A stretch of DNA of 37,101 bases from Bacillota bacterium (GCA_012719595.1 JAAYAB010000126.1:1-37101), one strand, 5' to 3'. Positions 826 through 32,922 are shown, counted from the stretch's first letter. Numbers and translations are program-made. The notes: a model not told the origin generated them from the sequence alone.

Positions 826-1821
826 CTAGAAGTTGACCACCCGGAAGAAACTCTCTTTCGGCTGGTGGTCGAAATCAAACAGCAGAGGCCAGTCTCTTCT
901 GCCTCTCACTGGGAAGTTGTGTCGCCATGAGTGGTCATCGGCCGTACCCCAGAGGGTAACTCCGGTTATGACGTCTCGATACCTGCGGAACAGCTCGAAT
1001 ACCTTCTCGTACTTCTCGGCCTGAAGCTTCATCATCTCGTCAGTGGGCGCCATCAAATCGGTTCGAAGGTCGGCAAAGGAAAAAACCGATATGTCGAGCT
1101 CAGTTATCTGAAGAGGCAGCCCGAGAGAGGCGTACTCCTCGAGGGCCTCGTCTATCGCATCGATAGAAGGACTGTGTATGCTCCAATGCCCCTGCAAGCC
1201 GATGCCGTGGATCGGCACGTCCTTGGCTCTCAGCTCGGTGACAAGTCTTATGATCTTCTTCCGTTTCTCTGGAGCTACTTCGTTGTAGTCGTTGTAGAAG
1301 AGAAGGGCATCGGGATCGGCGTCGTGTGCGTATTGAAACGCCTTTTCTATGTAGTCTGGTCCGATGATCTCAAGCCACTTGGTGCGACGCAGGTAGTCAG
1401 TCCCTTTGTCGTCAACCGCCTCGTTGAGGACGTCCCAGCAATAGGCCTTGCCTCTGTAGCGAGACACCAGCGTATGTATGTGCTCTCTCATCCGGTCGAG
1501 GAGAAGGTCCCTCGACGCCGGCGATCCGTCCGCCTGCTCGAACACCCACTGAGGAGTCTGCTGATGCCAGACCAGTACATGCCCTCGCAGAAGCATTCCG
1601 TTCGCCTGAGCAAAATCGGCGATGCTGTCCGAAAACAGAAACTGAAACGCGCTCTCAGTTGGGTGGACCGAGGAAAACTTCATTTCATTGGATGGAGTAA
1701 TGCTGGAGAAATGCTTGAGGAGAAGGTCCCTGTGAGTACGTATGGACCTTGCGGAGACAGCGGACCCGATCGGGAAAAAGCGCTCGTATGCCTTGCATAG
1801 AGACACAACCTCACCGGCCAC
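826..1821 (-). CDS. Endo-1,4-beta-xylanase, glycoside hydrolase family 10
   Basis: A complete 331-residue GH10 domain. Hallmarks are NEMKF at 45-49, HVLVWH at 81-86, WDVLNEA with the expected acid/base Glu134, QITELD with the expected nucleophile Glu241, and the late WGTADDHSW segment near 291-299. GH10 enzymes cleave internal beta-1,4 bonds in xylan and xylo-oligosaccharides with retention. There is no signal peptide or binding module, and the length is close to that of a bare catalytic domain, so it probably acts in the cytoplasm on imported xylo-oligosaccharides. The start is GTG at 1821, behind a purine-rich AGAGGGGGAAAGG. A cre/LacI-like palindrome sits 37 bases upstream and a near-identical one about 245 bases upstream. 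The partial binding protein gene follows on the same strand. Confidence 0.96.
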   Translation of the reverse strand: MAGEVVSLCKAYERFFPIGSAVSARSIRTHRDLLLKHFSSITPSNEMKFSSVHPTESAFQFLFSDSIADFAQANGMLLRGHVLVWHQQTPQWVFEQADGSPASRDLLLDRMREHIHTLVSRYRGKAYCWDVLNEAVDDKGTDYLRRTKWLEIIGPDYIEKAFQYAHDADPDALLFYNDYNEVAPEKRKKIIRLVTELRAKDVPIHGIGLQGHWSIHSPSIDAIDEALEEYASLGLPLQITELDISVFSFADLRTDLMAPTDEMMKLQAEKYEKVFELFRRYRDVITGVTLWGTADDHSWRHNFPVRGRRDWPLLFDFDHQPKESFFRVVNF

Positions 1822-4035: not shown

Positions 4036-7612
<3,577 letters not shown>

Positions 7613-8488
7613 ATGAGACGTCCCGCTCAGTCGGCGCCGATTCCCGTGCCAACCGACAGAATCTCACCGAGAGCCCTGATATGTGCGGTCTTCAGAGGCA
7701 CCGGCTATCCCAAGGGGGCAAGGGCCAGACCCCGATACGTCTATGACTACGAGCTGGAGCTTATACTCGAGGGTTCGGGGTTTCAGTACATCGACGACAG
7801 GCTCTACCCGGTTCAAAAGGGCGACGTGCTGTTCAGGACGCCCGGGCACTTCACGCAGGGCATCATGCCGTACAACTCCTACCTCCTGTGCTTCGATCTC
7901 TTGGGCGACAGCAACAAGGATCCTGCATCCTATGACCCGATGGCTGTAAAGGACTATCAGCCTGTCTATTCCAACCCCATACTTGACGCGCTCCCGACCG
8001 TGTATCACTCGACCACGTCTGAAGTCTACTACCGATTGTTTGACAGAGTGTTTCAGGAGATGATCAGCCCCACTGAGGTTTCCGGGATCATCACCAAATC
8101 GTGCATACTTCAGATCATCCATCAGCTCTATTGGGACCAGGGAGAGTCTGCGCGTCCCTCACCGCACTACGCCATGATAAGAAAGGCGCTCAGGTTCATA
8201 GATGACAATCTGGACGGAGATCTGAACTTGCAGACCATCGCCCAACACCTTGCGATGAGTCCGTTCTACTTCCACAAAGCCTTCACCGCTGAGATGGGCA
8301 TAACGCCCAACAAGCACATCACAAGGCTGCGGCTCGAGAAGGCCAAACGGCTCCTGACCAACTCGGACCAGTCGATCTCAGACATTGCAGTGCAGTGCGG
8401 GTTCCGAAGCACCTCGTACTTCGGCTATGTCTTCAAACGTAGCATCGGCACTTCTCCGAGCGTGTTCAGGCAGAGATACTGCTATTGA
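7613..8488 (+). CDS. AraC-family transcriptional regulator with cupin sensor domain
   Basis: About 291 residues in two parts. The N-terminal AraC-type ligand-binding cupin includes a YELELILEGSGFQYIDDRLYPV segment. The C-terminal double helix-turn-helix begins near ALRFIDDNLDGDL and contains LQTIAQHLAMSPFYFHKAF and the signature ISDIAVQCGFRSTSYFGYVFKRSIGTSPSVFR. Such regulators bind a sugar with the cupin and activate nearby catabolic promoters. It is transcribed away from the GH2 beta-galactosidase, the likely target. Starts are close together: ATG 7577 overlaps the candidate -10, while GTG 7607 and ATG 7613 follow GAGG and GGGGG stretches. I give the ATG at 7613; GTG 7607 is nearly as good. 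A GC-rich hairpin follows the stop. Confidence 0.93.
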   Translation: MRRPAQSAPIPVPTDRISPRALICAVFRGTGYPKGARARPRYVYDYELELILEGSGFQYIDDRLYPVQKGDVLFRTPGHFTQGIMPYNSYLLCFDLLGDSNKDPASYDPMAVKDYQPVYSNPILDALPTVYHSTTSEVYYRLFDRVFQEMISPTEVSGIITKSCILQIIHQLYWDQGESARPSPHYAMIRKALRFIDDNLDGDLNLQTIAQHLAMSPFYFHKAFTAEMGITPNKHITRLRLEKAKRLLTNSDQSISDIAVQCGFRSTSYFGYVFKRSIGTSPSVFRQRYCY

Positions 8489-8608: not shown

Positions 8609-9943
8609 TTACTGGTCGAACAGGTCATCGAGCCAAGCCTGAGCCTGAGGCTTGACCTGTGCCATCGACGCAACTGCGCCCTGCTTGCCGGTTATGACAT
8701 CCATGATCGGCGCATTGAGCATATCCCAAAGGGCGGTAGAGTCGAAGATGTCGCCTTCACCGGCGAACTCCTCAACAGCGGCCATGTACATCTCCCAGTG
8801 CTCGCGCTTGGTCACGGCGTAGTCCATCAGAGCCTGCTCTCTGGCCTCGACCCATGAGTCGTCGGGTCTGATCAGATAGCTGAGCAGCGCTACCAGGCCC
8901 TGCGGGTTCTTCACGTTTGCAGGCAGCACCGAGATCTCAAAGCCGAACGTCGGATAGTAGAACCTGTCCGCGCTCGGCCCCATCGGAGGAGGAACGAACC
9001 CGTACTCGTCCTGCAGAGTCTGCTTGGCAAACCGGTGACCGGCGATGTGCGCTCCGTTGAACGCCACACGACCGTTCTCGAACTTCTGGTTCGTGAATAT
9101 GCCTGCATCACGCCATCTCTTGTAAATGTTCAGTGCCTCGATCGCAGCCGGGCTGTCCAGGTTGAACACCATGTTTCCGTTCTCATCGACCCTGGCCACC
9201 TCAACGCCGTTGGTCGGAAGGAAGCGGATGATGTTCCTGTGGTTCGCAGTGATGTCAGTAGAGCCCCACTGATCTATGGTACCGTCTCCGTCTGTGTCGC
9301 GGGTCACTGCAATTGCGATCTTTTCGAACGCGTCATAGGTCCACTCGCCGTTTTGCCAGAGCTCCCATGGATCAGGCTGTCCCTCGCGCTCGAGCATGGA
9401 TTTGTTGTAGGCCCAGATGGTCATTGAATGGTTGATGTCGCCGTGGTAGACGCCGAAGCCATAAATCTTGCCTTTATGGGCCAGTCTCCTGGCAACGGCT
9501 GCGTCGGCTTTGCCCAAGAACTCGTAGTACTCATCAGGCAGGAAGTCGCTGACAGGAAAGAGCATGCCCTCGGATACCAACTTGAAGTATCCGATCGATC
9601 GGTGTTGCTGTCCGTAGACGATGTCTGCGGTAGACTCCCCAGCGAGTATCCTGGCCAGAAGCTCTGCATCGGTGATTCTTGCGATATTCGTTATCTTGCA
9701 GTTGAACAGCTTCTCCGCCTCGGCTACGCGCTCCAGGAATACGTCGTGGAATGATCCCCACTCCCACTTTGCAGTTCCGAAGTCGATGCCGACGAGTGTA
9801 ACCGTCTCGCCACCGAAATCGACCTCACCGGGACCCAGGACTCCCGGCGGAGGGGTGTAGTCATCGGCACTAACCAGATACGCCGGAGCCAAAAGAAGCG
9901 CAGCCACCAGGAACAAACCCAGAATAGCCCTCACGTGTTTCAT
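8609..9943 (-). CDS. Extracellular sugar-binding protein, family 1
   Basis: A 444-residue binding protein, clearly paralogous to the one at 2316. It shares the mature start DDYTPPPGV, the DTDGDGTID calcium-loop motif at residues 216-224 followed by QWG, and the C-terminus PQAQAWLDDLFDQ. The leader MKHVRAILGLFLVAALLLAP ends near LVSA with no lipobox cysteine, so the protein would be secreted or periplasmic. It is the last gene after the two CUT1 permeases, so it is probably their dedicated binding component. A gap of 186 bases separates it from the upstream permease, room for an internal promoter or mRNA-processing site. ATG 9943 has AGGAG three bases upstream and GGAGG further up. Confidence 0.95.
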   Translation of the reverse strand: MKHVRAILGLFLVAALLLAPAYLVSADDYTPPPGVLGPGEVDFGGETVTLVGIDFGTAKWEWGSFHDVFLERVAEAEKLFNCKITNIARITDAELLARILAGESTADIVYGQQHRSIGYFKLVSEGMLFPVSDFLPDEYYEFLGKADAAVARRLAHKGKIYGFGVYHGDINHSMTIWAYNKSMLEREGQPDPWELWQNGEWTYDAFEKIAIAVTRDTDGDGTIDQWGSTDITANHRNIIRFLPTNGVEVARVDENGNMVFNLDSPAAIEALNIYKRWRDAGIFTNQKFENGRVAFNGAHIAGHRFAKQTLQDEYGFVPPPMGPSADRFYYPTFGFEISVLPANVKNPQGLVALLSYLIRPDDSWVEAREQALMDYAVTKREHWEMYMAAVEEFAGEGDIFDSTALWDMLNAPIMDVITGKQGAVASMAQVKPQAQAWLDDLFDQ

Positions 9944-10129
9944 GAACTCCTCTTACCTCCCTGTTCATTGGTCATGCCCAACTGTCACCCTTCGACGCGC
10001 GACTACAAAGGCCGCTCTTGGCCAAGAACGACCTCCTGGCCCGATCACCCCCTGTTCTCATCTGTATGCTGCCTGTACAGCATGCTGCGGGAGTTCGTGT
10101 TGGCAGATCAGGCTCGCAGCATTATTCGC

Positions 10130-11095
10130 TCAGCCGACGATACCAGTCCGCTCCACGCTCTCGACAAACTGCCTCTGAAGGACCGCATAGAGCACCAAGA
10201 GCGGAGCGATGACCATCAAGCCTCCGGCGCTATTGAGCAGAGAGATCTCCTCCGGAGCGCGCTGCCACTGGTCACCAAGAACGGCAGAAGCCAATCCATC
10301 AAGATAAATAGGCAGGACTACCTGGTTCTTCATGTATAGGGTGATGAGCTGGTAGTCATTCCACTGCCACACGAATGCAAACAGGAACACGACGACCAAG
10401 CCCGGGATAGCGCCTGGGACCATCACCTGGAAGAATGTGCGGAACGGGCCCGCACCGTCGACGTATGCCGCCTCCTCGAGATCTTTTGGCATCCCCATGA
10501 AGAACTGCCTCATCATGTAGATGAAGAGCCCATTCCTCAAGCCTGTAGCCGTAATAGAAGTCACGATGTAAGGCCAGAACGTATTGAGCAGATTGAGCCC
10601 AGGACTCGGTATGAGCCCCCATGCTGTGAAGAAGCGGAAGTTGAGGTACAGGGGAGTGCCGATCATCTCAGGAGGTATTACCAAAGACAGGATCACCAGT
10701 GCAAACCAGAACCCCTTGCCTATGAAGTTGAACCTTGCAAATCCATACGCAACGAAAGTGCAAGAGGCCAACTGCAGACCGGCAACCATCAGGGCGAGCT
10801 TGAATGAGTTGAAGAAGGCCTGAGGGTACTTCATGAACTCATATGCCAGCCTATAGTTATTGAGCGTCGGGTACTTGGGTATGAACGAGACAGTCTGATC
10901 CCACATGTCGGCTCGTGTCATTATCGAGATCGAGAACTTGCCGATGAGCGGAAACAGAATCACATACGATATGCCGATCACAATCACTGCCCGCAAGACC
11001 GACATGGCGATGGCTTGCGCAGAGATTGAACGGCGGCGCTGCTTGATCGACCTAAGCGTCAACTCGATATTGGTATCAGATGCAGTATGCACCAC
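10130..11095 (-). CDS. Carbohydrate ABC transporter permease, MalG/YesQ type (CUT1)
   Basis: A 321-residue integral membrane protein with about six hydrophobic segments, the first near ALRAVIVIGISYVILFPLIG. The EAA loop typical of binding-protein-dependent importers reads EEAAYVDGAGPFRTFFQVMVPGAIPG and would contact the shared ATPase. With the permease encoded just upstream it should form the heterodimeric membrane channel of a CUT1 sugar importer. No ATPase gene is present in the window; CUT1 systems often use a shared MsmK-type ATPase encoded elsewhere. The start is GTG 11095 with GGAGGGG five bases upstream; the following codon is also GTG. It lies 26 bases after the upstream permease. Confidence 0.94.
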   Translation of the reverse strand: MVHTASDTNIELTLRSIKQRRRSISAQAIAMSVLRAVIVIGISYVILFPLIGKFSISIMTRADMWDQTVSFIPKYPTLNNYRLAYEFMKYPQAFFNSFKLALMVAGLQLASCTFVAYGFARFNFIGKGFWFALVILSLVIPPEMIGTPLYLNFRFFTAWGLIPSPGLNLLNTFWPYIVTSITATGLRNGLFIYMMRQFFMGMPKDLEEAAYVDGAGPFRTFFQVMVPGAIPGLVVVFLFAFVWQWNDYQLITLYMKNQVVLPIYLDGLASAVLGDQWQRAPEEISLLNSAGGLMVIAPLLVLYAVLQRQFVESVERTGIVG

Positions 11096-11121
11096 GTTTA
11101 CCCCTCCAAGCGCAATGCTAC

Positions 11122-12045
11122 CTATCGGTCGTGGTAGAAGACGAACCTAGATGTCGCACCGACAACGATTCCCAGGATGACCGCGATCGTGGCGAAGTAG
11201 ATCCACAGCATCGCCGAACTTGCCCCGAATCCCTTGCCGAAGAACGTAGTATCGCGGATCAGCTGCATGACTTCGTTAGACGGAGATATGAAGAAGTCAA
11301 TTATCGTGTAGACTACGTTCGTGATGATCAACGGACTCAGCATTGGGAAGGTGATCATCCAGAAATTCTCCCAGGCTGTGGCACCTTCCACCTCTGACGC
11401 CTCATACAGCGAACCCGGTATGGACTGAAGGCCGGCGAGGAAGATCAGGATCTGCACGCCTGAAGCATTTATGATGTCCGGTATCATGTCGACTGCGCCT
11501 GCAACGAACTCAAGGAACTTCAAAGGGATCCTGAGCTGCATCAGAAACATCATCAGGATCTGTCCGCTGAGGAAGCTGGTGCCGGGAACGTTTTGAGCCG
11601 TCTGGATCGTATCGTATGCGACGCCCGTGAGGTAGTCCGTCTGATCCAGTTTGAGGACAATTCCGGCAGACACGACCACCGGAAGGAAGAAGATCGTCCG
11701 TGCCAGCAATCTGCCCCGGAAGTTCTGGTTGAGGAGGTTCGCCGCAAAGAAGCTGAACACCAGCACCCAGAAGACCTTGTTGAGCATAGCACCGGTCGTC
11801 GACAGGAGCTGCGGGACGAAGTCGGCGTTGACAAGCGTTGCATACTTGTAGTTCTCCCACCCGACGAATGTCATCTTCACCCCGTTAGCTTCCATGGCCA
11901 GGCTGTTTAGGCTATAGATGACCGACTGAACCACAGGCGCAAGGATGAAGAGGATGAACCCGATTATGAACGGGAAGATGAAGATGTACCCGTAGACGCT
12001 GTCGCGTTGTCTGAGCGTCAGACGAAACCTTCGCTTAGTGCGCAC
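11122..12045 (-). CDS. Carbohydrate ABC transporter permease, MalF/YesP type (CUT1)
   Basis: About 307 residues with around six membrane spans, the first being YGYIFIFPFIIGFILFILAP. The EAA-type loop is YEASEVEGATAWENFWMITFPMLSPL. It pairs with the permease encoded next. The open frame allows a TTG at 12063, but GTG 12045 is better placed behind GGGAGGGC. That start overlaps the end of the DUF5696 gene by 11 bases, indicating translational coupling. The basic N-terminus (RTKRRFRLTLRQRDS) fits the cytoplasmic side of a YesP-like permease. Confidence 0.93.
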   Translation of the reverse strand: MRTKRRFRLTLRQRDSVYGYIFIFPFIIGFILFILAPVVQSVIYSLNSLAMEANGVKMTFVGWENYKYATLVNADFVPQLLSTTGAMLNKVFWVLVFSFFAANLLNQNFRGRLLARTIFFLPVVVSAGIVLKLDQTDYLTGVAYDTIQTAQNVPGTSFLSGQILMMFLMQLRIPLKFLEFVAGAVDMIPDIINASGVQILIFLAGLQSIPGSLYEASEVEGATAWENFWMITFPMLSPLIITNVVYTIIDFFISPSNEVMQLIRDTTFFGKGFGASSAMLWIYFATIAVILGIVVGATSRFVFYHDR

Positions 12046-14788
12046 CGCTCTGCCCTCCCTCAATCACCCTGTAGCTGGCACCGTCAATCGCTACACCGTC
12101 GAACTCAAACGGGTCAGACCTATAGTTGACTATGACTGACACTCCGTTCTCGTAGACGGTCTGATAGACATCTGCAGCCAGCCGTTTGTGATCGACTATG
12201 CGCTGGTCCTTCACTTTGCTGAGAAACTCCTTCAGTTCGAGGTATATGTCGACTGCCTCTGACAGCCAATACTGATAGTGGCATGAGTACAAGTCTGCGA
12301 AAGTGGTGTCCTTGATAATGGAAGGTTCTCTGTAGAACCACCTGAACTGAGGATGCGCGCCGGTCTCGATCGATCTCAAGATCAGCTTTCGTATGTTGTC
12401 GGAGACGTTTATCGCCGTTCCAGCGTAGGTGTTGTAGCCTCGGACAACCATCTGCATGAACGGCACGCTCTCGGCAACCGACCGATACTGGGTCGCCTCC
12501 AGTGACATGTGCACCATGTATTTCGCGTATGGCAGAGCATACACGTTAGTGAGCGTGGTCATGAGATCGAGGCCAGCCTCTTCGCGCAACCGCTTGAGCT
12601 GACTCTCCACGATTTGAGCGGCCTGACCCCGGTCAGTCATATTGCCAGGCTGATAGTCAGATACCACGATGTAGCCCAGGTCGTCTAGCGCCACGCCCGG
12701 AATGCCGTAGCCGAGATAGTCTTTGAGGAAGTTCGATACGAGAATCTCCAGCCTTCGAGGCGACAGGATGTGAGTCTCAGCGACTTGGCCTGTGGGCACT
12801 TTGGCCGCCTCCCGCCTCAGGTTCACAGAACTTGTGTTCAGCGTCGGCAGTAACTGAAGGTAGACACTTGGATACAGCTCGACACCTCGCTCGCTGAGAT
12901 AGTCGCGAAGTCTGGTGAGTCCTTTCAGGCCTCCAAGGACGTCCTCAGTCATAGCTCGACTTGCGAAGTCATGATCAATTCCGCCCTTCAGCCATCCGGA
13001 GTACTTGACCACGATGTCCTTGACCCCGGCAGCCATCAGCTCATCGACAATCTGTCTGGCCTCGTCAAAGGTAGTCAGCGCCACAGGCACGTTTAGCGGC
13101 ACACCCATGATAGGCCTCCGTGTGTATATGGCGCCTAGGATGTCGAGGAACAGAGGCGGGTCGCCCTCCGTGGTCCTTCTCTGCAGAATCCCTCTCTCGA
13201 CCAGGTATTGCTGGTAGTACCTTGCCATGCCGACATAGTCTGCTGAATCCCTGTCGAGGAACGCGTACCGGATTCTTATGTCTTCCTCTGGAAGACGCTC
13301 GGCGTATATATTGATGGACTTGTCTCCGCCCCGCTCACTGCGTGCTGTGGTGGCCAGCGTGACTACGCTGAACGGCATGAGCGTATACTCAGACGAAACG
13401 GAGCTGTAGGTGTTTGCGTTTCCCGCAACACGCCCCGACACGCTTGCGAACGCTGCCCCGCTCTCTATCACAGCAAAGAACGCCAAGTCATTCTTCTTGA
13501 GGCCGAAGACTGGCAGGTGAATACCTTGGGACGAGTCATATTGGACTATGTCTGTGCTGGACGTCTGCTGCGGGATCACGTAGTCTCTGCCGAATACTCT
13601 CTTGAGATAGGAGCGGTCACTCAGAGTAGAGATATCGATCAGAGCACCTGAGCCGTCCGGCACGAATATATAGCCCTGGGTTCCTTTATCCGCAGCACCG
13701 AAGAAAGGCAAGACGTCGACAGAATACAGCGGGAAAGTGACCAGATTTCCGCCCACCTGTTGTTCGAAGTGCTCGTAGATGTTGCCGCGGCCGACCTGGC
13801 CCTGGAAGACCGACTCCGCTCCTTTGACGTAGGCCATCTGGGCGACCACGTCCTTCGGGTAGCGCACGCGGTCCATCGGCACAGTCACGATGAGACAATC
13901 GTCCTCCAGCGTGTACTCGATGGTGATGTCGAAGGTCTCGATATTTCTCTCAGGAGCGGGATAGCCGTAGGCCTCTTGGTCGACTCCGACATCCTCGGGA
14001 AGGTAGCCGATCGACTTGAACAGATTGACCATATCGACCTTGTCCCAGGGAGTGATCCTGGATTTGAGAACGTACGTAGGATTGTCGACCAGGTTGATCA
14101 TGTACTCCTCTTTGACATCCGCCCTGGCATCGACATCATCCCTCAGATCCACCATACGGTCCAGCATGAGGTAGACGAGGTTGTTTTTCTGGGTCGTGTT
14201 CATCGTGCTGCTCAACGGGACGAGTTCATACTTGCCCCACAGCTTGTCTGGTCCCAGGGTGCCCGACGTGTCCGGCTCAGGCAGCCGGCTGAGCTGAACC
14301 AGATCGTACTGCTTGAGTATGAACGACTGGTCGCTCTTGTCCAGCTTGTCGAGGATCATGCTCTGAAATCGTTCCTGGCTGATGGAGAGAGGTATGAAAT
14401 CGTCTTCCTTCCACACGAGGCCCAGAGTGTAGGTGATGGCCACTCCGTTTTCGATCGGCTCTATCTCGAACTGCCCGTGTTGAATGCTATCCTTGTAGCT
14501 GTCATACCTCTTGCGTTTGTCTTCAGGATCGTAGTAGACGATGTTAAGCTGGTACTTCTCCTGCTTTGCTGAAGGCGGGTTGGAGTACCAGATCTCGCCG
14601 GTCAGTTTGTCTCTGACCGCAATCTCTGTGGTCGACTTGTTGACAAGCAGCGCCAGTCTCTCGCTTTCAGCCATGACCTCGTAACCCTTTGGGTCGGCAG
14701 CATACGCAGTATACGACATCCGCAGGCAGATACACAGCACAACGGCCATGGCTACCAGCACTGTCCTGCGAATCATGGAGTTCATCAT
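12035..14788 (-). CDS. DUF5696-type secreted protein, glycosidase-like
   Basis: A 917-residue protein with a signal peptide (cleavage near TAYAADP). The first half is beta-rich and resembles the N-terminal sandwich domains of large glycosidases. From about 545 the sequence looks like a TIM barrel: FLDILGAIYTRRPIMGVPLN, VKDIVVKYSGWLKGG near 589-603, ELYPSVYLQLLP near 637-648, and GVALDDLGYIVVSDYQPG near 698-715, whose Asp702, Asp703 or Asp711 could be catalytic. I recognise it as the DUF5696 type found beside YIP1-family proteins and CUT1 permeases; its biochemical role is not known to me. GGAGG precedes ATG 14788 by five bases, and a second ATG follows directly. It lies 15 bases after the lipoprotein gene and overlaps the permease gene, so all are probably co-transcribed. 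Confidence 0.85.
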   Translation of the reverse strand: MMNSMIRRTVLVAMAVVLCICLRMSYTAYAADPKGYEVMAESERLALLVNKSTTEIAVRDKLTGEIWYSNPPSAKQEKYQLNIVYYDPEDKRKRYDSYKDSIQHGQFEIEPIENGVAITYTLGLVWKEDDFIPLSISQERFQSMILDKLDKSDQSFILKQYDLVQLSRLPEPDTSGTLGPDKLWGKYELVPLSSTMNTTQKNNLVYLMLDRMVDLRDDVDARADVKEEYMINLVDNPTYVLKSRITPWDKVDMVNLFKSIGYLPEDVGVDQEAYGYPAPERNIETFDITIEYTLEDDCLIVTVPMDRVRYPKDVVAQMAYVKGAESVFQGQVGRGNIYEHFEQQVGGNLVTFPLYSVDVLPFFGAADKGTQGYIFVPDGSGALIDISTLSDRSYLKRVFGRDYVIPQQTSSTDIVQYDSSQGIHLPVFGLKKNDLAFFAVIESGAAFASVSGRVAGNANTYSSVSSEYTLMPFSVVTLATTARSERGGDKSINIYAERLPEEDIRIRYAFLDRDSADYVGMARYYQQYLVERGILQRRTTEGDPPLFLDILGAIYTRRPIMGVPLNVPVALTTFDEARQIVDELMAAGVKDIVVKYSGWLKGGIDHDFASRAMTEDVLGGLKGLTRLRDYLSERGVELYPSVYLQLLPTLNTSSVNLRREAAKVPTGQVAETHILSPRRLEILVSNFLKDYLGYGIPGVALDDLGYIVVSDYQPGNMTDRGQAAQIVESQLKRLREEAGLDLMTTLTNVYALPYAKYMVHMSLEATQYRSVAESVPFMQMVVRGYNTYAGTAINVSDNIRKLILRSIETGAHPQFRWFYREPSIIKDTTFADLYSCHYQYWLSEAVDIYLELKEFLSKVKDQRIVDHKRLAADVYQTVYENGVSVIVNYRSDPFEFDGVAIDGASYRVIEGGQSGAH

Positions 14789-14803
14789 GCAAGCCTCCGT
14801 TTC

Positions 14804-17002
14804 CTACCGAAGCACGGCTTCAGAGTAGATATCGATGGCGAAGACGATCATATGGTTTATCACCGTGGAGAACAGGAGCATTATGAACAGCGACACTCCT
14901 ATCCCCGCAACGACCAGAACGGACGTGCCTATCGTCTTGGCAAAACTGTACTCATGCGTGATCATCGTGCCAATAAAGAGCATCAGTCCAGCCCATATCA
15001 TACTGAGCACGAGTATCAGGTAGTAGATCTGAGCCTCCTCAAGCACCAGGAAGTGGCTCACCAGTGTCAGCGGAACGATCACCAGAATGAGAGGCAGGAG
15101 CGAGTACGCAGAAGCGATAACGATCTCCCGGAATGTGCCCTTGCCCTCCATAAGGGTGGTCAGAGCCCAGTTGACCGCGCACCAGAGGATGAACGGCACC
15201 ACTACTCCCAGCGCTTCCGTTATGACGTTCAGCTGCCACAGGTCATTCTTGTTGAGCACAAAGCCCGTGTACTGCCGCATGAAAATCAGCGTTGCGACGA
15301 CGAAGAGCAGGATGACGTTAGCTGCAGCAAGATTGCCTCTCTTCTCGTGCTTGAGCTCCCAGAAGCCGTCGAACGGATGGGCAAGGACATGGAACGCGAA
15401 TCTCAGCGCACGAAGAGTCTCGCGGATCTTGTCCTTCATCAGCAGATTCCTGTGTTCTACCTGATAGTGAAAGGCGTGAGGCTGAGCTGAATATGCACCG
15501 TAAATGCCAGCCGCAGTGCTGTCCGCGGGCTCGAGGCGGCTCGACGCTCGCGCCCTCGCCCTGGCGAACACCCAGATAAGCACTATCACTATCGCAACGA
15601 CTGTCGCGAAGGTGCCGAAGTGCTGCCCGACAACCTCGCGCCTATACACGGCAAACGCTTCGGAATAGCCCGCTCGGTTCTGACCCAGCCTGAAGTTGGT
15701 CATCGCGCCGATATAGTCACCCTGGCGGAACAGGGCGCTTCCAATTCCGGAATAGGCCATATCGTAGTTGGCATTGAGCCTGAGGACCTTTTTCCAGTAT
15801 TCCGTCGCTTCTTCGTACCTGCCGCTGTTGTACAGCGCCAGTGCCGCGGTTATGAGTTTTCCGTATTCGGTCGGTTTGAACACAGTGAAGCTGCCGCTCG
15901 AGTCGAGCACTACGACGTCCGACCCCAAGGTGTCTATAGCCGTAGGAAGTCTGAAGAGTCCGACAGAGTCGCCCAGGCCGCCGAAGACATAGAGCAGGTT
16001 GCCGAGAGAGTCGTACGTGAATATGCGCCCGTATTGACGGTCGAGCACCGTATAGGTTCCGAATTCCCGTGCCACGATATCTGCGAACACCGATATACCC
16101 GTAGATCGGTCTGCCGGGTCGCCCATCGGCGGCAGGAATCCGGCTCTCACGAGGACATCTTCACCTGCGGGGTTCAGTCTCTTGACGCTCTCCTTCTTTG
16201 ACGTTCCTTGCTCTACAGCCATGATCATGCCTTTGGAGTCTATGTCGATGTTGACATACTCGATTGGCAGGAAAAGGGCTTTTCGTTCCCTCTGTTCGTC
16301 CGTGGCGATCCAGGCCCAGAACCTCTCCCAAAGAGTAGGGGCAACTCTCGGAGCACCGATGAACCCCGAGAAGTTCCCTCCTGCGTTGTACTTCATCAAT
16401 CCATCAAACACGTCCCGGGCTATGACATACATCTCTCGAGTGGGACTGACTGCCACCTTCCTGGGCCTGTAGACGAAGTCCTCCGACACGATGCCTTCGT
16501 ACTCATCGCTGAGCTCCGGAGGACCCACGATCCGCAGCAGGTTGCCCTCGCGGTCGAGCACGACTACGCGGCCATTTACTGTGTCAGCAACATAGATCTC
16601 GCCTGCCGCAGTCACGAAAACGCCTTCAGGCTTGTTGAACTTATCCTGAACGCCGTTGTTGACAAACCCGCTGATGACCTTGGTGACTCTGTAGTTGGAG
16701 TCCATGCAGATGATGCGGTTGTTGCCGGTGTCTGCGAGATAGACGTGACGGTCGGCACTCACGAACAGATCAAGGGGATCCTTGAGCGGTCCGACGCCAA
16801 GGGCGTCGCCGTCATACACTCTGTCCGGTAAGTACGCCTGAGGGGCTGGCACCATGTAGGACCAAAAATCATAGATATAGCTGTAATAAGGCGCTTCGAG
16901 TGGAGTGGCTGCCAACGATGCAGAGCAAGCGGCCAGCAGAATAGAGAAGGATAGAGAAGCCACGAGCCACAGCGCCCGTCGAGCAGGTAGTCGATGTATC
17001 AA
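14804..17002 (-). CDS. NHL-repeat/TPR lipoprotein with C-terminal Yip1 membrane domain
   Basis: About 732 residues. The N-terminus is a lipoprotein signal with lipobox LAAC (Cys26 from the preferred start). An NHL-type beta-propeller follows, with repeats such as PLDLFVSADRHVYLADTGNNRI and KPEGVFVTAAGEIYVADTVNGRV, up to about residue 390. Next come tetratricopeptide-like helices (ALYNSGRYEEATEYWKKVL; ALFRQGDYIGAMTNFR), a membrane span (FATVVAIVIVLIWVF) and a Yip1-like domain with about five more spans starting near HPFDGFWELKHEKRG. The layout suggests an extracytoplasmic sensor or scaffold anchored at both ends. ATG 17032 begins the open frame but has a poor ribosome site; TTG 17002 has GGGGAG seven bases upstream and gives a normal signal peptide. 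It is probably the first gene of the operon. Confidence 0.85.
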   Translation of the reverse strand: MIHRLPARRALWLVASLSFSILLAACSASLAATPLEAPYYSYIYDFWSYMVPAPQAYLPDRVYDGDALGVGPLKDPLDLFVSADRHVYLADTGNNRIICMDSNYRVTKVISGFVNNGVQDKFNKPEGVFVTAAGEIYVADTVNGRVVVLDREGNLLRIVGPPELSDEYEGIVSEDFVYRPRKVAVSPTREMYVIARDVFDGLMKYNAGGNFSGFIGAPRVAPTLWERFWAWIATDEQRERKALFLPIEYVNIDIDSKGMIMAVEQGTSKKESVKRLNPAGEDVLVRAGFLPPMGDPADRSTGISVFADIVAREFGTYTVLDRQYGRIFTYDSLGNLLYVFGGLGDSVGLFRLPTAIDTLGSDVVVLDSSGSFTVFKPTEYGKLITAALALYNSGRYEEATEYWKKVLRLNANYDMAYSGIGSALFRQGDYIGAMTNFRLGQNRAGYSEAFAVYRREVVGQHFGTFATVVAIVIVLIWVFARARARASSRLEPADSTAAGIYGAYSAQPHAFHYQVEHRNLLMKDKIRETLRALRFAFHVLAHPFDGFWELKHEKRGNLAAANVILLFVVATLIFMRQYTGFVLNKNDLWQLNVITEALGVVVPFILWCAVNWALTTLMEGKGTFREIVIASAYSLLPLILVIVPLTLVSHFLVLEEAQIYYLILVLSMIWAGLMLFIGTMITHEYSFAKTIGTSVLVVAGIGVSLFIMLLFSTVINHMIVFAIDIYSEAVLR

Positions 17003-17463
17003 GGCAGGTCTCCCCTTCCAGTTGTACCTCATCTACCCGTAACGCCAAATCTGCCTGGCGCGAACTACATCACCCAGGCGAGAGTGCTCATCTGATCTGC
17101 ATTTGTTGTCAAGGCGAGCCGATCATCTGTTCAAGGGAAGGTCACAAAGCCACAGAGAAATGCGCACTCTGCCACCACTATTGTACACCCGAGGGTCGAT
17201 CTACTCCACCAGGTATCTTGTCTCGATTGTCAAAATCTTGCGCCATTATCCCCTCCTACAGCGCAGCCTGCATTCACACTGTAACGACATCTTGTTCTAG
17301 CAGAAGTGCCGACACCTTCGAGCATTCAGCCCGAGGTATCTACACCTCGGGAGTGTGCGGCCCGAGGTGTATGCGCCTCGGGAACGTGCTTCCCGAGGCG
17401 CCCATTTCACAGATGTGTTGGCACGAGACTCCTAGTCCTCAAGAACACTGGCCCCCGGGCTGC
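17003..17463. other. Intergenic region with palindrome array and operon promoter candidates
   Basis: About 460 bases without a credible gene. The part near 17330-17475 is a palindromic repeat array, listed separately. The remainder should hold the promoter of the minus-strand transporter operon. Candidates are TACAAT (complement of 17180-17185) as a -10 and TTGACA (complement of 17107-17112) as a -35, but neither is paired with a good partner at normal spacing. Confidence 0.4.
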
Positions 17464-17475
17464 CTACGCCTCGGG
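17330..17475. repeat. Period-31 array of palindromic repeats
   Basis: Two intact 22-base palindromes at 17330-17351 and 17361-17382 each have CCCGAGG and CCTCGGG arms around a variable centre. They are separated by nine bases (AGTGTGCGG; AACGTGCTT follows the second). A third left arm, CCCGAGGCG, starts at 17392, and a fourth variant hairpin occupies 17454-17475. The starts 17330, 17361, 17392 and 17454 all fall on one 31-base register; the unit expected near 17423 is decayed. The last copy overlaps the 3' end of the DUF4282 gene and could fold after its transcript. Confidence 0.75.
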
Positions 17476-17799
17476 GGTCTTTGGTCTGCGATCGGCACTC
17501 GCTGCCGTCTCCGCTATGGCTGAGATATTCTCTGAAATCCGGAAGATGACCATGATCAACTCCAGATACACTCGAGCCGCTAGCAGCGAAAGGATAAAGA
17601 AAATCGGAGCCCCAATGAACAAGGTCAACACGCCCAACCCGGCGGAAGACTCGAACGCGGACACCAACAGACCCAGCGTGGCGAAGCTGATGCCAATCAG
17701 AGCGAGCACATACATGACACGGACCACTCGGATGGTGATGAAGCGGCGGAAGGAGAAGTCGAACAACGCTGAGAAGCTGCTTTTCAGATTGTCGTCCAT
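17464..17799 (-). CDS. DUF4282 domain membrane protein
   Basis: A 111-residue protein with two hydrophobic spans: VVRVMYVLALIGISFATLGL near 25-44, and a second across GVLTLFIGAPIFFILSLL. The second is followed by the DUF4282-like segment ARVYLELIMVIFRISENISAIAE. The preceding FSFRRFITIRVVRVMYVL also fits the family, whose function is unknown to me. AGGAGG lies eight bases upstream of ATG 17799. The C-terminal tail (ADRRPKTPEA) is encoded over the last palindrome of the adjoining array. It lies 74 bases downstream of msrA on the same strand and may be read with it. Confidence 0.85.
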   Translation of the reverse strand: MDDNLKSSFSALFDFSFRRFITIRVVRVMYVLALIGISFATLGLLVSAFESSAGLGVLTLFIGAPIFFILSLLAARVYLELIMVIFRISENISAIAETAASADRRPKTPEA

Positions 17800-18605: not shown

Positions 18606-19400
18606 ATGGTCGGAGACATCGAAAGGGCCTTCTCCCGTCAAGGCTCAGAGGTACATCTGAGTGAGCTCAGGGCAGGAGTGCTGCCTCTCTATGTCACGCT
18701 CCCGGTCGCTTTTGTGTCTGGTTTTCTCCTCTCCCTGTTTCCCTGGGCACTAGGGATCTTCCTCAGGCTTGTCCTTGCCGTGACATCTCAAGGGAACGCT
18801 GTAGAGGCACCACCTACCTATGAGGATGCGTCATTCACATCCGTCCTGACAGAGGTATGGCCGTACGGTGTGGCGTTCGGCGCGGCATGCATTGCGGCTT
18901 CGCTGCTGAGGAGGTATTCCGCTCGTCGAAACAAGTACCTGGTTCTGACCGTCGGACAGTTTGCCGAGTTTCGAGTGAGCTACGGTGAGGTAGGCACTGC
19001 AATCGGGATAGCTGCAGTGCTACTGGCGATGTCCCAAACCGCAAGAGATCTGAGCATCATGGTGGTCATCCTGTCGCCCATTGCCGGAATGCTCTTGCAG
19101 GACTTTCAAGACTGGCTGTTGAGGACATACGCCCGCCTCACTTCGAACCAGGTCGCAGAGAACGTGTACAGCGTCTGGGAGATCGTGCGCAGCCGGGAAG
19201 AGGCACGGGGGACCAAGCTCCACGCAGTCGGGGCGCGCTGCGGGGGAAGAGTTCTTGTGGTGAACGGCGTTGTCTCAGATGAGATGACCCTCGACTTCTT
19301 CAGCAGACTGCCCAACATGATTCACGGTGTAGAAAGGGTTATTCTCAACGGGCAGGAGTTGCAGAGCAGGCCTCCCATGCAGCCAAAGGGCACATCTTAG
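18606..19400 (+). CDS. Membrane protein of unknown function
   Basis: A 264-residue protein I do not recognise. About four hydrophobic stretches are visible: LYVTLPVAFVSGFLLSLFPWALGI, VAFGAACIAASLL, GTAIGIAAVLLAMS and LSIMVVILSPIAGMLL. A hydrophilic C-terminal half has a small compact region around CGGRVLVVNGVVSDEMTLDFF. GAGGAGGT lies eight bases before ATG 18606. A TAGAAT at about 18558-18563 is a possible -10 without a good -35. The phospholipase C-like gene follows after 24 bases, so the two are probably translated from one message. Confidence 0.75.
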   Translation: MVGDIERAFSRQGSEVHLSELRAGVLPLYVTLPVAFVSGFLLSLFPWALGIFLRLVLAVTSQGNAVEAPPTYEDASFTSVLTEVWPYGVAFGAACIAASLLRRYSARRNKYLVLTVGQFAEFRVSYGEVGTAIGIAAVLLAMSQTARDLSIMVVILSPIAGMLLQDFQDWLLRTYARLTSNQVAENVYSVWEIVRSREEARGTKLHAVGARCGGRVLVVNGVVSDEMTLDFFSRLPNMIHGVERVILNGQELQSRPPMQPKGTS

Positions 19401-19424
19401 CAGGCGGCAATCGGGGGGAGTGCA

Positions 19425-21086
19425 ATGCTGCCCAGGCTGTATCGGATTCTGATCCGATTGCTCCTGCTGCCGGTCATGCCGTGCTTCATGTGGGGACCGG
19501 CGACGCACTCATACATCGCACACAGGGCATTCCGCAAGGCCCAGAGCGATCCAGGTCTCGCGAGATGCCCGGAAATCGTTGACGCGATTGATCACAATCC
19601 GGAGGTCTATCTGTACTCAGCTAATAGCCCCGATGCCATTGCAGCCAACCACGTCTTGTACAACATCATTGTCTACGATTACGCCCACAACAACATCCCG
19701 AACAGGCCTGACGGAACCCCCATATTCGGGTATAGGCTGATCGCCGAAGCGCTCGACAGGCTTCGGCGCGCGAGTGAGGCCGCGCGGCACGCTCGCGAAA
19801 GGGAGCTTGCCTTCGCCTGCGGGTGGCTGACCCACCAGTTGTCTGACTGGATCACTCACTACAAGAGCGTTGAGAGCGAGACCGTCGCGGGCGAGGCGCC
19901 CACCTTCTTCGGTTATGCCAACTCACATCAGGTGCTAAGTCCTTGCTTCCATCCTGATATCCTCAGAGCCAAACGAGAAGCAGAGCATATCTTGACAGAG
20001 ACTCTCCACGACGCTCACATCATGTTCAGCGACAGGACAGGCCTTCTCAGCCCGGGCCGCAACAAGGTATACCTGACCACTGAACTCGACGACAACCTGG
20101 TCTCAGCTGTCTCTGCAACGTTTGGGCGGCATGGCTTCAGCAAGATTCCAGCGGGCCATCTTGCCAAACTCAAGGAGGATTTCGATGTCGTCATCAACGG
20201 CATCGAATCATGCCTTGTTGTGGCGAAAGCCATTCAGCCATGCTTTGTGCAGGTCGTCAGGGAGTTCTCTGAGAAGAACCAGCGTTACGTTGAAGAGTCG
20301 GTGGACAGAGTGGTCGGCGAGCTGTTCGCCCTGACCAGAGAAGAGATCGCACAACGAGCCGGCACTGAACCCCGGGCGCTTGACTATGCACGATCTGTTT
20401 CTGTCGTGAAGACCAAGGAAGAGTCGCTGATTCAAAGACTGGCCTTCCGAATCGGCAGGGTGGTGACGCCAGATGTGATCGAAGCTCTGTTCGCTGGACC
20501 GGTGGCGATGTTCGAGTGGGACATACCGGGACCGTGGGATCCGTCGATCAAGCTGGATCTGGGGGACAAGATCAAGAGACTGCTGCCTAGCCGCCTGGGG
20601 GTGCTGGGCGGCAGAGCCGAATCCTCCAGAGCCCTGGTCAACTTCGCCGAGAAGCTGCTGTCGGCGTCCGGCGACATCATGGGACAAGCCCGTGACGCCT
20701 ACTGTTCAACCCTCCGCCCTGTGACTGACCTCGATGAGGACCGCGATCCGTTCGAGCCTGAAGATGACGACTCCATACTCGAAAGAATGGTGTCTGAGCG
20801 CCGCATAAGAATCAGGTTCACGCCTGCGCAGCGCACAGATAAGGAAAGAGGCAGGTACCTCCTCGATCCAAACACAATAGTCATCAGGATCAACGGCTAC
20901 CTTCCCGACGACCCTGGAGCGCCGTTTACGCTTGTCCAGCGCTGGGATAGGTCCGGAGAGATCCTGCACTGCGAGATCAGTCTCGATCCAGAGTTGCAGA
21001 GCGGCTGCATTCATCTGTTTGCTGACATAAGAGACAGGCGGGGCGAGCATTCACAGTATATCGACAAGCAGGTCAGGCTTTTCTAA
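19425..21086 (+). CDS. Zinc-dependent phospholipase C-like protein
   Basis: A 553-residue protein whose N-terminal part resembles zinc-dependent phospholipase C domains. A hydrophobic leader is followed by WGPATHSYIAH (Trp23, His28, His33), then SANSPDAIA (Asp70), YDYAHNN (His88) and the metal-ligand-like helix CGWLTHQLSDWITH (His137, Asp141, His145). In that family such residues hold a three-zinc cluster that hydrolyses phospholipid head groups. The C-terminal half, from about 300, is not recognised and ends in a beta-rich region. GGGGGAG precedes ATG 19425. Substrate and location are uncertain: the leader is short, with Trp23 close behind it, so it could be a cleaved signal or a retained hydrophobic start. 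Confidence 0.72.
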   Translation: MLPRLYRILIRLLLLPVMPCFMWGPATHSYIAHRAFRKAQSDPGLARCPEIVDAIDHNPEVYLYSANSPDAIAANHVLYNIIVYDYAHNNIPNRPDGTPIFGYRLIAEALDRLRRASEAARHARERELAFACGWLTHQLSDWITHYKSVESETVAGEAPTFFGYANSHQVLSPCFHPDILRAKREAEHILTETLHDAHIMFSDRTGLLSPGRNKVYLTTELDDNLVSAVSATFGRHGFSKIPAGHLAKLKEDFDVVINGIESCLVVAKAIQPCFVQVVREFSEKNQRYVEESVDRVVGELFALTREEIAQRAGTEPRALDYARSVSVVKTKEESLIQRLAFRIGRVVTPDVIEALFAGPVAMFEWDIPGPWDPSIKLDLGDKIKRLLPSRLGVLGGRAESSRALVNFAEKLLSASGDIMGQARDAYCSTLRPVTDLDEDRDPFEPEDDDSILERMVSERRIRIRFTPAQRTDKERGRYLLDPNTIVIRINGYLPDDPGAPFTLVQRWDRSGEILHCEISLDPELQSGCIHLFADIRDRRGEHSQYIDKQVRLF

Positions 21087-31612: not shown

Positions 31613-32851
31613 CTAACTCCAGCTCCTATGTGGTGCCACCAGCTCCTGTGCGATGTCAGTCCACTTAGTGAAACGTTCAGGATGGTTCTCGCACGTATGA
31701 GTGTCCTTGAGGATCATCTCCACGATACAGTCTCCGGTCACGTCGAGCGTGTGCTGGATGTAGTCACGGACCCTCTGCGCGTTGAACTCTCCTACGAGAT
31801 GGGACGGATCCGGCTTCCAGGAGTATATGTACTTGTCTTTCAGCTTCCTGGCGCAAGCCTCGACGTCCGCCCACGGAGATATCGATATTCTCCTGATATT
31901 CGGAATATCCATGACATAGTCCAGCTTCCTCGTGAGATCCTCGCAGCATCCGTATCCGTTGAGGCCAAACGGCTCCAGCAACCTCTTCTCGTATTCCATG
32001 ACAAACTCGTGGTGCATTGCAGGAGACACCTGGGCCATCTCCTGTGACTCGGCAGAGGCCCACATGTCGCAGGGGCGAACCCTCTCAGAGTCGCAATCCG
32101 GCTGAGGGAGCTCGGTGGTGTAGCCGAGTCCGCCGGACGAATGGTAGGTTTCGTCATTGTTGAGGCTCAGCAGGTTGAGCTCGACGTACTGCTCGATCAT
32201 TCTCCTGTATCCTTGCTCTAAGAACGACATTGCCTCATGAACGAAGCCGGGGTCGTCACACATGTCCCACATAACCTGTTCAAGGCCTCGAAGGTCACAG
32301 TAGACCGCCATGAAGTGAAACGACACATGGTCTATGCCCTTGAGCTTGACGTCGAGAATGTCGCCGAGGAGGTCCTGGGCTTCGTCCAGCGCTCGCAGAG
32401 TGGATTCCTCATCATAGGTGATCTCCGGGAATCTGAGCTTCTTCAAATCATCTCGGTCTCTGATCACAGGGTCGAACGCCCAGGCACCCGTGGATTGGCT
32501 GCTGCGCTTGCGCTTGGGCTTCAATCCCCAGCCGGAGTTGCTTATCACCTTTCTGACGATCCAGTTGGCCTCTACCGGCTTGTCGTCATGAATGTGCTCA
32601 TGCTGGAATATGCGCAGTTTGAGCTCGTACTCGTACACACGCGCCTTGTCTTCGCTGCACTCCAGACTCGACCACGGAAGCAGCTCTCGCCAGGCACCTT
32701 CCGGAAACACCAGGATCATGGGCCCGACGGACTCGAGACGGTTGTGGCGCGTCCACATGTCCCTGCGTTTCTGCATGATCGGTAGCTCTGCGATTTCCCT
32801 TACTCTCTCAGCCAGTGAGCGAATGATGGCTCTGTCGCCGCTGCTGATCAT
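31613..32851 (-). CDS. UROD/MetE-like superfamily protein (methyltransferase-like)
   Basis: About 412 residues resembling the uroporphyrinogen decarboxylase/cobalamin-independent methionine synthase superfamily, which includes corrinoid-dependent methyltransferases. Typical features are a TIM-barrel pattern with VSFHFMAVYCDLRGLEQVMWDMCDDPGFVHEAMSFL, the segment FGLNGYGCCEDLTRKLDYVMDIPNIRRISISPWAD, where the GCCED cysteines and acid could bind zinc, and a late DYIQHTLD. I cannot name the substrate. The frame is open from TTG 32887, but ATG 32851 has GGAGGT about nine bases upstream. It lies 71 bases after the GH116 gene on the same strand, so a link to glycoside catabolism, such as handling a methylated sugar or aglycone, is possible (inference only). 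Confidence 0.75.
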   Translation of the reverse strand: MISSGDRAIIRSLAERVREIAELPIMQKRRDMWTRHNRLESVGPMILVFPEGAWRELLPWSSLECSEDKARVYEYELKLRIFQHEHIHDDKPVEANWIVRKVISNSGWGLKPKRKRSSQSTGAWAFDPVIRDRDDLKKLRFPEITYDEESTLRALDEAQDLLGDILDVKLKGIDHVSFHFMAVYCDLRGLEQVMWDMCDDPGFVHEAMSFLEQGYRRMIEQYVELNLLSLNNDETYHSSGGLGYTTELPQPDCDSERVRPCDMWASAESQEMAQVSPAMHHEFVMEYEKRLLEPFGLNGYGCCEDLTRKLDYVMDIPNIRRISISPWADVEACARKLKDKYIYSWKPDPSHLVGEFNAQRVRDYIQHTLDVTGDCIVEMILKDTHTCENHPERFTKWTDIAQELVAPHRSWS

Positions 32852-32922
32852 CGAAAGCCTACCTCCCCGGTCTGCTTTGATCCTCAACTAGACGAGATCC
32901 CGATGAAATCCTGTGAAGCGCC

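Follow-up and report, generated by a model that had tools for sequence, protein, structure and literature searches.

In the 37,101-nt stretch of a Bacillota bacterium genome analysed here (GCA_012719595.1, JAAYAB010000126.1:1-37101; hereafter the window), five minus-strand genes encode, in this order, a membrane protein with an NHL β-propeller, TPR repeats and a Yip1 domain (N), a secreted DUF5696 protein (D), two permeases (PermF and PermC) and a solute-binding protein (SBP). We consider, with a probability of about 0.6, that this operon encodes a CUT1 (type-I) oligosaccharide importer with two dedicated extracytoplasmic partners, N and D. Computation over many genomes shows an almost obligate genomic association of N and D with the PermF–PermC pair. 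The two proteins are a genuine and strictly conserved accessory pair for CUT1 importers, apparently not described before. The operon extends from 17002 or 17032, according to the start chosen for N, down to 8609 (Table 1). N and D are separated by 15 nt, PermF overlaps D by 29 nt, and the PermF–PermC and PermC–SBP gaps are 26 and 186 nt. Gene order, strand and spacings all agree with a first-pass annotation, which had described five tightly packed genes on this strand.

A profile search with N yielded 80 named loci, mostly in Bacillota, from Paenibacillus, Thermobacillus, Neobacillus, Lachnospiraceae, Oscillospiraceae, Limnochordia and Halanaerobiales; single N-bearing assemblies labelled Treponema, Chloroflexi and Dictyoglomus could be mis-binned. 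D follows N in 77 of the 80 loci, the other three being contig ends, and PermF–PermC then follow in all 63 loci with room for them. N is preceded in 71 of 74 loci by genes for a large binding protein (BIG) and a second permease pair (PermF2–PermC2), and neighbouring cassette genes mostly overlap or lie less than 60 nt apart. The usual cassette is larger than the window operon, which is a lineage-specific half-cassette. The five-gene system of the first-pass annotation is present as described but incomplete: it missed the second importer half, the many paralogues and the fact that the NHL-TPR and Yip1 parts are often encoded by two genes.

In 61 genomes of one Bacillota family, apparently Paenibacillaceae, DUF5696 is present in 43; N lies just 5′ of D in 109 of 109 cases, and D lies just 3′ of N in 109 of 109 (a few of these D stretches are partial genes). 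Since this adjacency is reciprocal and complete both ways, chance is excluded, and the loci from multiple families likewise reject an oddity of one genome. Homologues scattered away from sugar importers were not seen in this gene-neighbourhood survey, and the earlier claim of a link between N–D and a CUT1 importer holds. In the phylum at large, DUF5696 was detected in 25 of 300 sampled genomes. The same gene order occurs independently in two plasmids annotated by NCBI, one from Paenibacillus cellulosilyticus, with ugpC at the head of the operon, and one from Butyrivibrio fibrisolvens, the rumen plasmid pNP243 (locus L186). On pNP243, the complete series BIG-F2-C2-NHL-Yip1-DUF5696-F-C-SBP follows a glycoside hydrolase (GH) family 43 gene, which suggests mobility of the cassette. 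DUF5696 is also encoded in two unannotated 'Bacteriophage sp.' records from human faeces (MT835587.1 and MT835600.1), which are probably bacterial contigs filed as phage. A search of one literature library found no paper naming DUF5696, in line with the annotation of this system as poorly described, and searches for Yip1 or NHL together with ATP-binding cassette (ABC) transporters or oligosaccharides found nothing relevant; a transcriptome paper on Paenibacillus JDR-2 makes no mention of NHL or Yip1.

The window is one contig of a 2.99-Mb assembly (94% complete) that contains 22 DUF5696 matches in about 20 places and 17 Yip1 matches. D lies 3′ of N in 16 of the 17 copies, and the 17th N runs off its contig. 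The second permease pair, together with the large binding protein where the contig reaches that far, precedes N in 7 of the 17 copies; the other 10, including that of the window, have LacI, GH, binding-protein or other genes in its place. The idea that D genes without a visible N in this genome are free-standing was rejected, as contig C250 begins with the end of an N gene and contigs C81, C266, C46 and C36 are cut at their ends. On C250, the last 46 residues of N are followed by a 263-codon open reading frame and then by D, which shows that other sequence can be inserted between the two genes. The N-gene 3′ end at the start of C250 resembles that of contig C71, and the two contigs may join. 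Contig C108 carries a C-terminal D fragment, probably decayed, behind a GH38 gene.

SBP and PermF/PermC are shown by computation to form a CUT1-type transporter. PermC matches PF00528 (4e-12, 46.7 bits) and the NCBIfam UgpE model (5e-19). PermF scores 22.5 bits against BPD_transp_1, below the Pfam cut-off of 26.4, and matches NCBIfam UgpA with an E-value of 8e-12; it is about 43–52% identical to most paralogues at the same position, and its nearest solved relative by sequence is AlgM1 (4tqu; weak, E 1e-5). SBP has no Pfam match and resembles the arabino-oligosaccharide-binding protein 6rjy (phmmer E 1e-7), with 30–38% identity to the binding proteins beside paralogous cassettes. BIG, of about 980 residues, consists of an N-terminal carbohydrate-binding-like region and an SBP_bac_1 domain, and with PermF2–PermC2 it looks like a separate importer. 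All four permease types retain EAA motifs, and the idea that PermF2 and PermC2 are degenerate was therefore rejected. BIG-F2-C2 stands without N–D on contig C239 of the same genome, indicating that the two halves are separable and that N–D goes with PermF–PermC; where the other half is missing, N–D still stays with PermF–PermC. Among the genes of this genome that are at least 49% identical to PermC, 13 of 15 are part of an N–D module or come immediately after a D gene; of the remaining two, C290 lies at a contig edge and C304 is a true exception. These arrangements lead us to regard N and D as accessories of the PermF–PermC importer.

The Yip1 domain of N (PF04893) scores 53.8 bits, above the curated cut-off of 28.6. 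In the AlphaFold model of N (predicted local distance difference test (pLDDT) 86), numbered from the ATG start, a propeller (residues 51–387) and a TPR region (389–450) are followed by a long helix that includes a transmembrane segment (453–499) and by the Yip1 helices (528–741). This ATG, at 17032, is the start given by the list of open reading frames; an in-frame TTG at 17002, preceded by the strong Shine-Dalgarno sequence GGAAGGGGAG at a spacing of 7 nt, is the better start. Since several C-terminal transmembrane segments are present, N is an integral membrane protein. The earlier label of lipoprotein suits the window copy, whose signal peptide has an LAAC lipobox, but not the family: of 96 homologues, only 18 have a lipobox and 95 have hydrophobic segments at the C terminus. 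The NHL-TPR and Yip1 parts are split between two neighbouring genes in 48 of 80 loci (for example L071 and many of L080–L148); their fusion in the window is evidence for their acting together.

D matches DUF5696 (PF18952) over most of its length with 571 bits, against a curated cut-off of 25.6. Its predicted structure (pLDDT 87) comprises an N-terminal β-sandwich, a TIM barrel and a C-terminal β domain. Foldseek gives DagB (5opq) as the best match (E 8e-32, TM-score 0.71 by target length), then the GH129 enzyme NagBb (5wzn; E 1e-23), followed by GH101 and GH31, and the same two structures, 5opq and 5wzn, rank first in a sequence-profile search. The predicted fold of D is thus of the GH129/GH101 glycosidase type. 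D showed no match to the GH129 profile PF11308, with PF18952 alone listed at E-values up to 0.01. Of the two catalytic residues of NagBb, only one is kept in DagB, with Asp435 corresponding to Asp486 (PMC5698469). The designation of D as glycosidase-like is right at the level of the fold, and hydrolysis by window D is possible.

In the arrangement that we favor, N would hold D at the membrane face, with the propeller and TPR region as binding platforms, and the Yip1 domain would lie beside the permeases within the membrane. D would bind oligosaccharides in its GH-like cleft; copies with a preserved active site would cleave them, the others would only present them, and in either case they would be passed to SBP and the permeases. 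Judging from the variety of GH families around them, the cassette copies would differ in the plant-type glycans that they serve, and the half-cassette of the window would have lost, or never had, BIG, PermF2 and PermC2.

Several observations weigh against this arrangement. The candidate nucleophile of window D, Asp703, the proposed counterpart of the NagBb nucleophile Asp435, lies at the end of strand 4 of the TIM barrel, as placed by secondary structure rather than by superposition. This position is Asp in only 39 of 65 D homologues and non-Asp in 26; it has changed seven times on the D tree and flips among close paralogues, 9 of 13 in the same genome being non-Asp. The GH129 calcium motif HLDGW aligns to KY[QST]GW in D, its role in calcium binding being deduced from PMC8106489 and from the change of HLDGW in the sequence of the 5wzq mutant rather than from a list of residues. 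Beyond D itself, the exception on C304 is a permease pair of the same type without N–D, behind a URO-D-type gene, and the P. cellulosilyticus cassette lies among oxidoreductases, not GH genes, so plant glycans may not be the substrate in every case. Loss of the calcium motif and variation at the likely nucleophile position leave capture or trimming of a polymer by D, as suggested earlier, no more than a possibility. These features of D, together with a gene order that is the same with or without the Asp, also fit a non-catalytic glycosidase-fold adaptor, a pseudo-enzyme that only binds sugar or docks SBP, with N–D contributing to the structure or gating of the importer; we regard this as possible but tentative. 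Asp711, Arg720, Asn794 and Glu808 remain in such a D, being kept in 92–100% of members. On the other hand, a large D clade comprising Lachnospiraceae and part of Paenibacillus retains the Asp strictly (SLRDLG), which suggests catalysis there, window D has Asp at both 702 and 703, and the active site on which the argument turns is placed by secondary structure alone. An alignment with a profile of this Asp-bearing clade still stops short of the NagBb nucleophile. For a residue-level profile comparison, 250 genomes of the phylum were searched for GH129 sequences without success, and the controls also gave no match.

If the usual eight-gene cassette formed one surface machine, two CUT1 importers with their own binding proteins would be bridged by NHL-Yip1 and a possibly non-catalytic D and driven by one ATPase, and the window lineage would have a half-size version with many paralogues. 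This would be a glycan-uptake system widespread among Gram-positive bacteria and without a described counterpart; we are doubtful of this larger assembly. N links an extracytoplasmic propeller and TPR region to a membrane domain through one transmembrane helix, and LacI or AraC regulators often adjoin the cassette, as might be expected of a sensing or quality-control module that reports the state of the substrate or transporter through Yip1 and does not handle sugar. This role seems unlikely, as no fused cytoplasmic signalling domain or kinase is present, the regulators vary and the fold of D is that of a carbohydrate enzyme. Operons combining an importer with GH genes are common in Bacillota (e.g. 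PMC4765114), and N and D could simply be a secreted glycosidase and an unrelated membrane protein co-transcribed by happenstance in an ordinary sugar-importer operon. A one-to-one linkage in fixed order over many families, far stricter than that of the surrounding GH genes, which vary by copy, makes this disfavoured explanation very improbable.

No ATPase gene was found in or beside the window operon, and the first-pass annotation had taken this to imply a shared ATPase. The genome encodes three MalK-type ATPases against 88 permease-domain matches, a number that includes other types of ABC importer. One of the three, on contig C305, is an orphan not located beside permeases and passes the UgpC cut-off. 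MsmX-type multitask ATPases have four characteristic residues, D77, R104, E110 and K154 (PMC7658222). The C305 ATPase keeps all four, as aligned by the Walker A offset, which supports a shared ATPase. A gene for a MalK-type ATPase stands at the head of the operon in 15 loci, directly before BIG, which gives one ATPase gene per two permease pairs. We infer that a shared ATPase, as first proposed, is well supported, and the motor of the window importer is most likely the orphan UgpC/MsmX-type ATPase on C305.

Table 1. Coordinates of the operon and of neighbouring genes in the window
Feature	Position	Strand	Evidence
N (NHL β-propeller, TPR, transmembrane helix and Yip1 membrane protein)	14804..17002	-	Pfam NHL, TPR_2, Yip1; AlphaFold model
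D (secreted DUF5696 protein)	12035..14788	-	PF18952 571 bits; structure model; Foldseek
PermF (CUT1 permease, MalF/UgpA-type), EAA motif YEASEVEGA	11122..12063	-	UgpA, AlgM1 structure match
PermC (CUT1 permease, MalG/UgpE-type), EAA motif EEAAYVDGA	10130..11095	-	PF00528, UgpE
SBP (solute-binding protein), signal peptide without lipobox	8609..9943	-	phmmer to 6rjy
AraC-family regulator	7577..8488	+	HTH_18 1.6e-24; convergent with operon end, divergent from GH2 gene
GH2 β-galactosidase-type enzyme	4036..7356	-	Pfam GH2 domains
GH10 xylanase-family enzyme	826..1821	-	PF00331 3.6e-97

GH2, GH3, GH5, GH10, GH20, GH26, GH38, GH43, GH44, GH78 and GH106 genes lie near cassette copies, with GH26 found in 10 of the 95 proteins that neighbour the named loci, and LacI or AraC regulators are frequent neighbours. 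Because different copies have different enzymes nearby, they are unlikely to share one substrate. A relative of the window GH10 gene lies directly 3′ of PermC in another module copy (L026). From the GH10 neighbour and the nearest solved relative of SBP, our guess is that the window importer may take up a plant-type oligosaccharide, and the AraC-family protein is a plausible candidate regulator of the operon. The P. cellulosilyticus plasmid cassette (NZ_CP054609.1, L187) lies beside genes for four LLM flavin-dependent oxidoreductases, an NADPH-dependent oxidoreductase and aldo/keto reductases. This set may resemble those of sulfoquinovose monooxygenase pathways.

Scans for promoters and terminators gave no excess over shuffled sequences, and a hairpin in the PermC–SBP gap was no better than shuffles (z -0.9). 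Between a DUF4282 gene and the N gene, at 17330-17478, GC-rich palindromes (CCTCGGG-N9-CCCGAGG) are repeated in tandem with a 31-bp spacing; this exact pattern was not found anywhere else in the same genome, and the repeats are a candidate operator cluster or a candidate terminator of the upstream genes. Elsewhere in the window, the plus strand at 18606-21086 encodes a 264-residue protein without a Pfam match and then a 553-residue zinc-dependent phospholipase C-like protein (just below the cut-off), a gene pair with no relation to the operon. A 424-residue protein without a Pfam or NCBIfam match is encoded on the minus strand at 31613-32887, flanked by genes for a binding protein and a GH116 enzyme.

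The operon resembles the AraNPQ-MsmX-type CUT1 systems of Bacillus subtilis in having a binding protein, two EAA permeases and no ATPase gene, with a UgpC/MsmX-type ATPase encoded elsewhere. Unlike that type as described, it includes NHL-Yip1 and DUF5696 partners, and its relatives have two permease pairs per operon. D shares its domain plan, profile matches and fold matches with GH129 and GH129-like glycosidases (NagBb, 5wzn; Zobellia DagB, 5opq), but it has no Pfam Glyco_hydro_129 match, has lost the calcium motif, varies at the nucleophile position, is longer (about 750–950 residues) and is tied to an importer operon. As in Gram-positive polysaccharide utilisation loci, the importer, LacI/AraC regulators and GH genes are clustered; here, however, the GH genes vary around a fixed N-D-PermF-PermC core, usually placed after BIG-PermF2-PermC2. 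The Sphingomonas alginate importer AlgM1M2SS (4tqu) is likewise a type-I importer of large oligosaccharides, although the similarity of PermF to it is weak. AlgM1M2SS is not known to have an NHL, Yip1 or DUF5696 partner.

The partnership of N and D with the permeases is among the strictest that we saw in this analysis. It occurs in most of the sampled genomes of the family and in Firmicutes of rumen, gut and soil, and reaches about 20 copies in a 3-Mb genome. If N and D belong to the importer as subunits, much of the fibre uptake by Gram-positive bacteria would use a component that is currently annotated as 'unknown function' or 'YIP1 family protein'.

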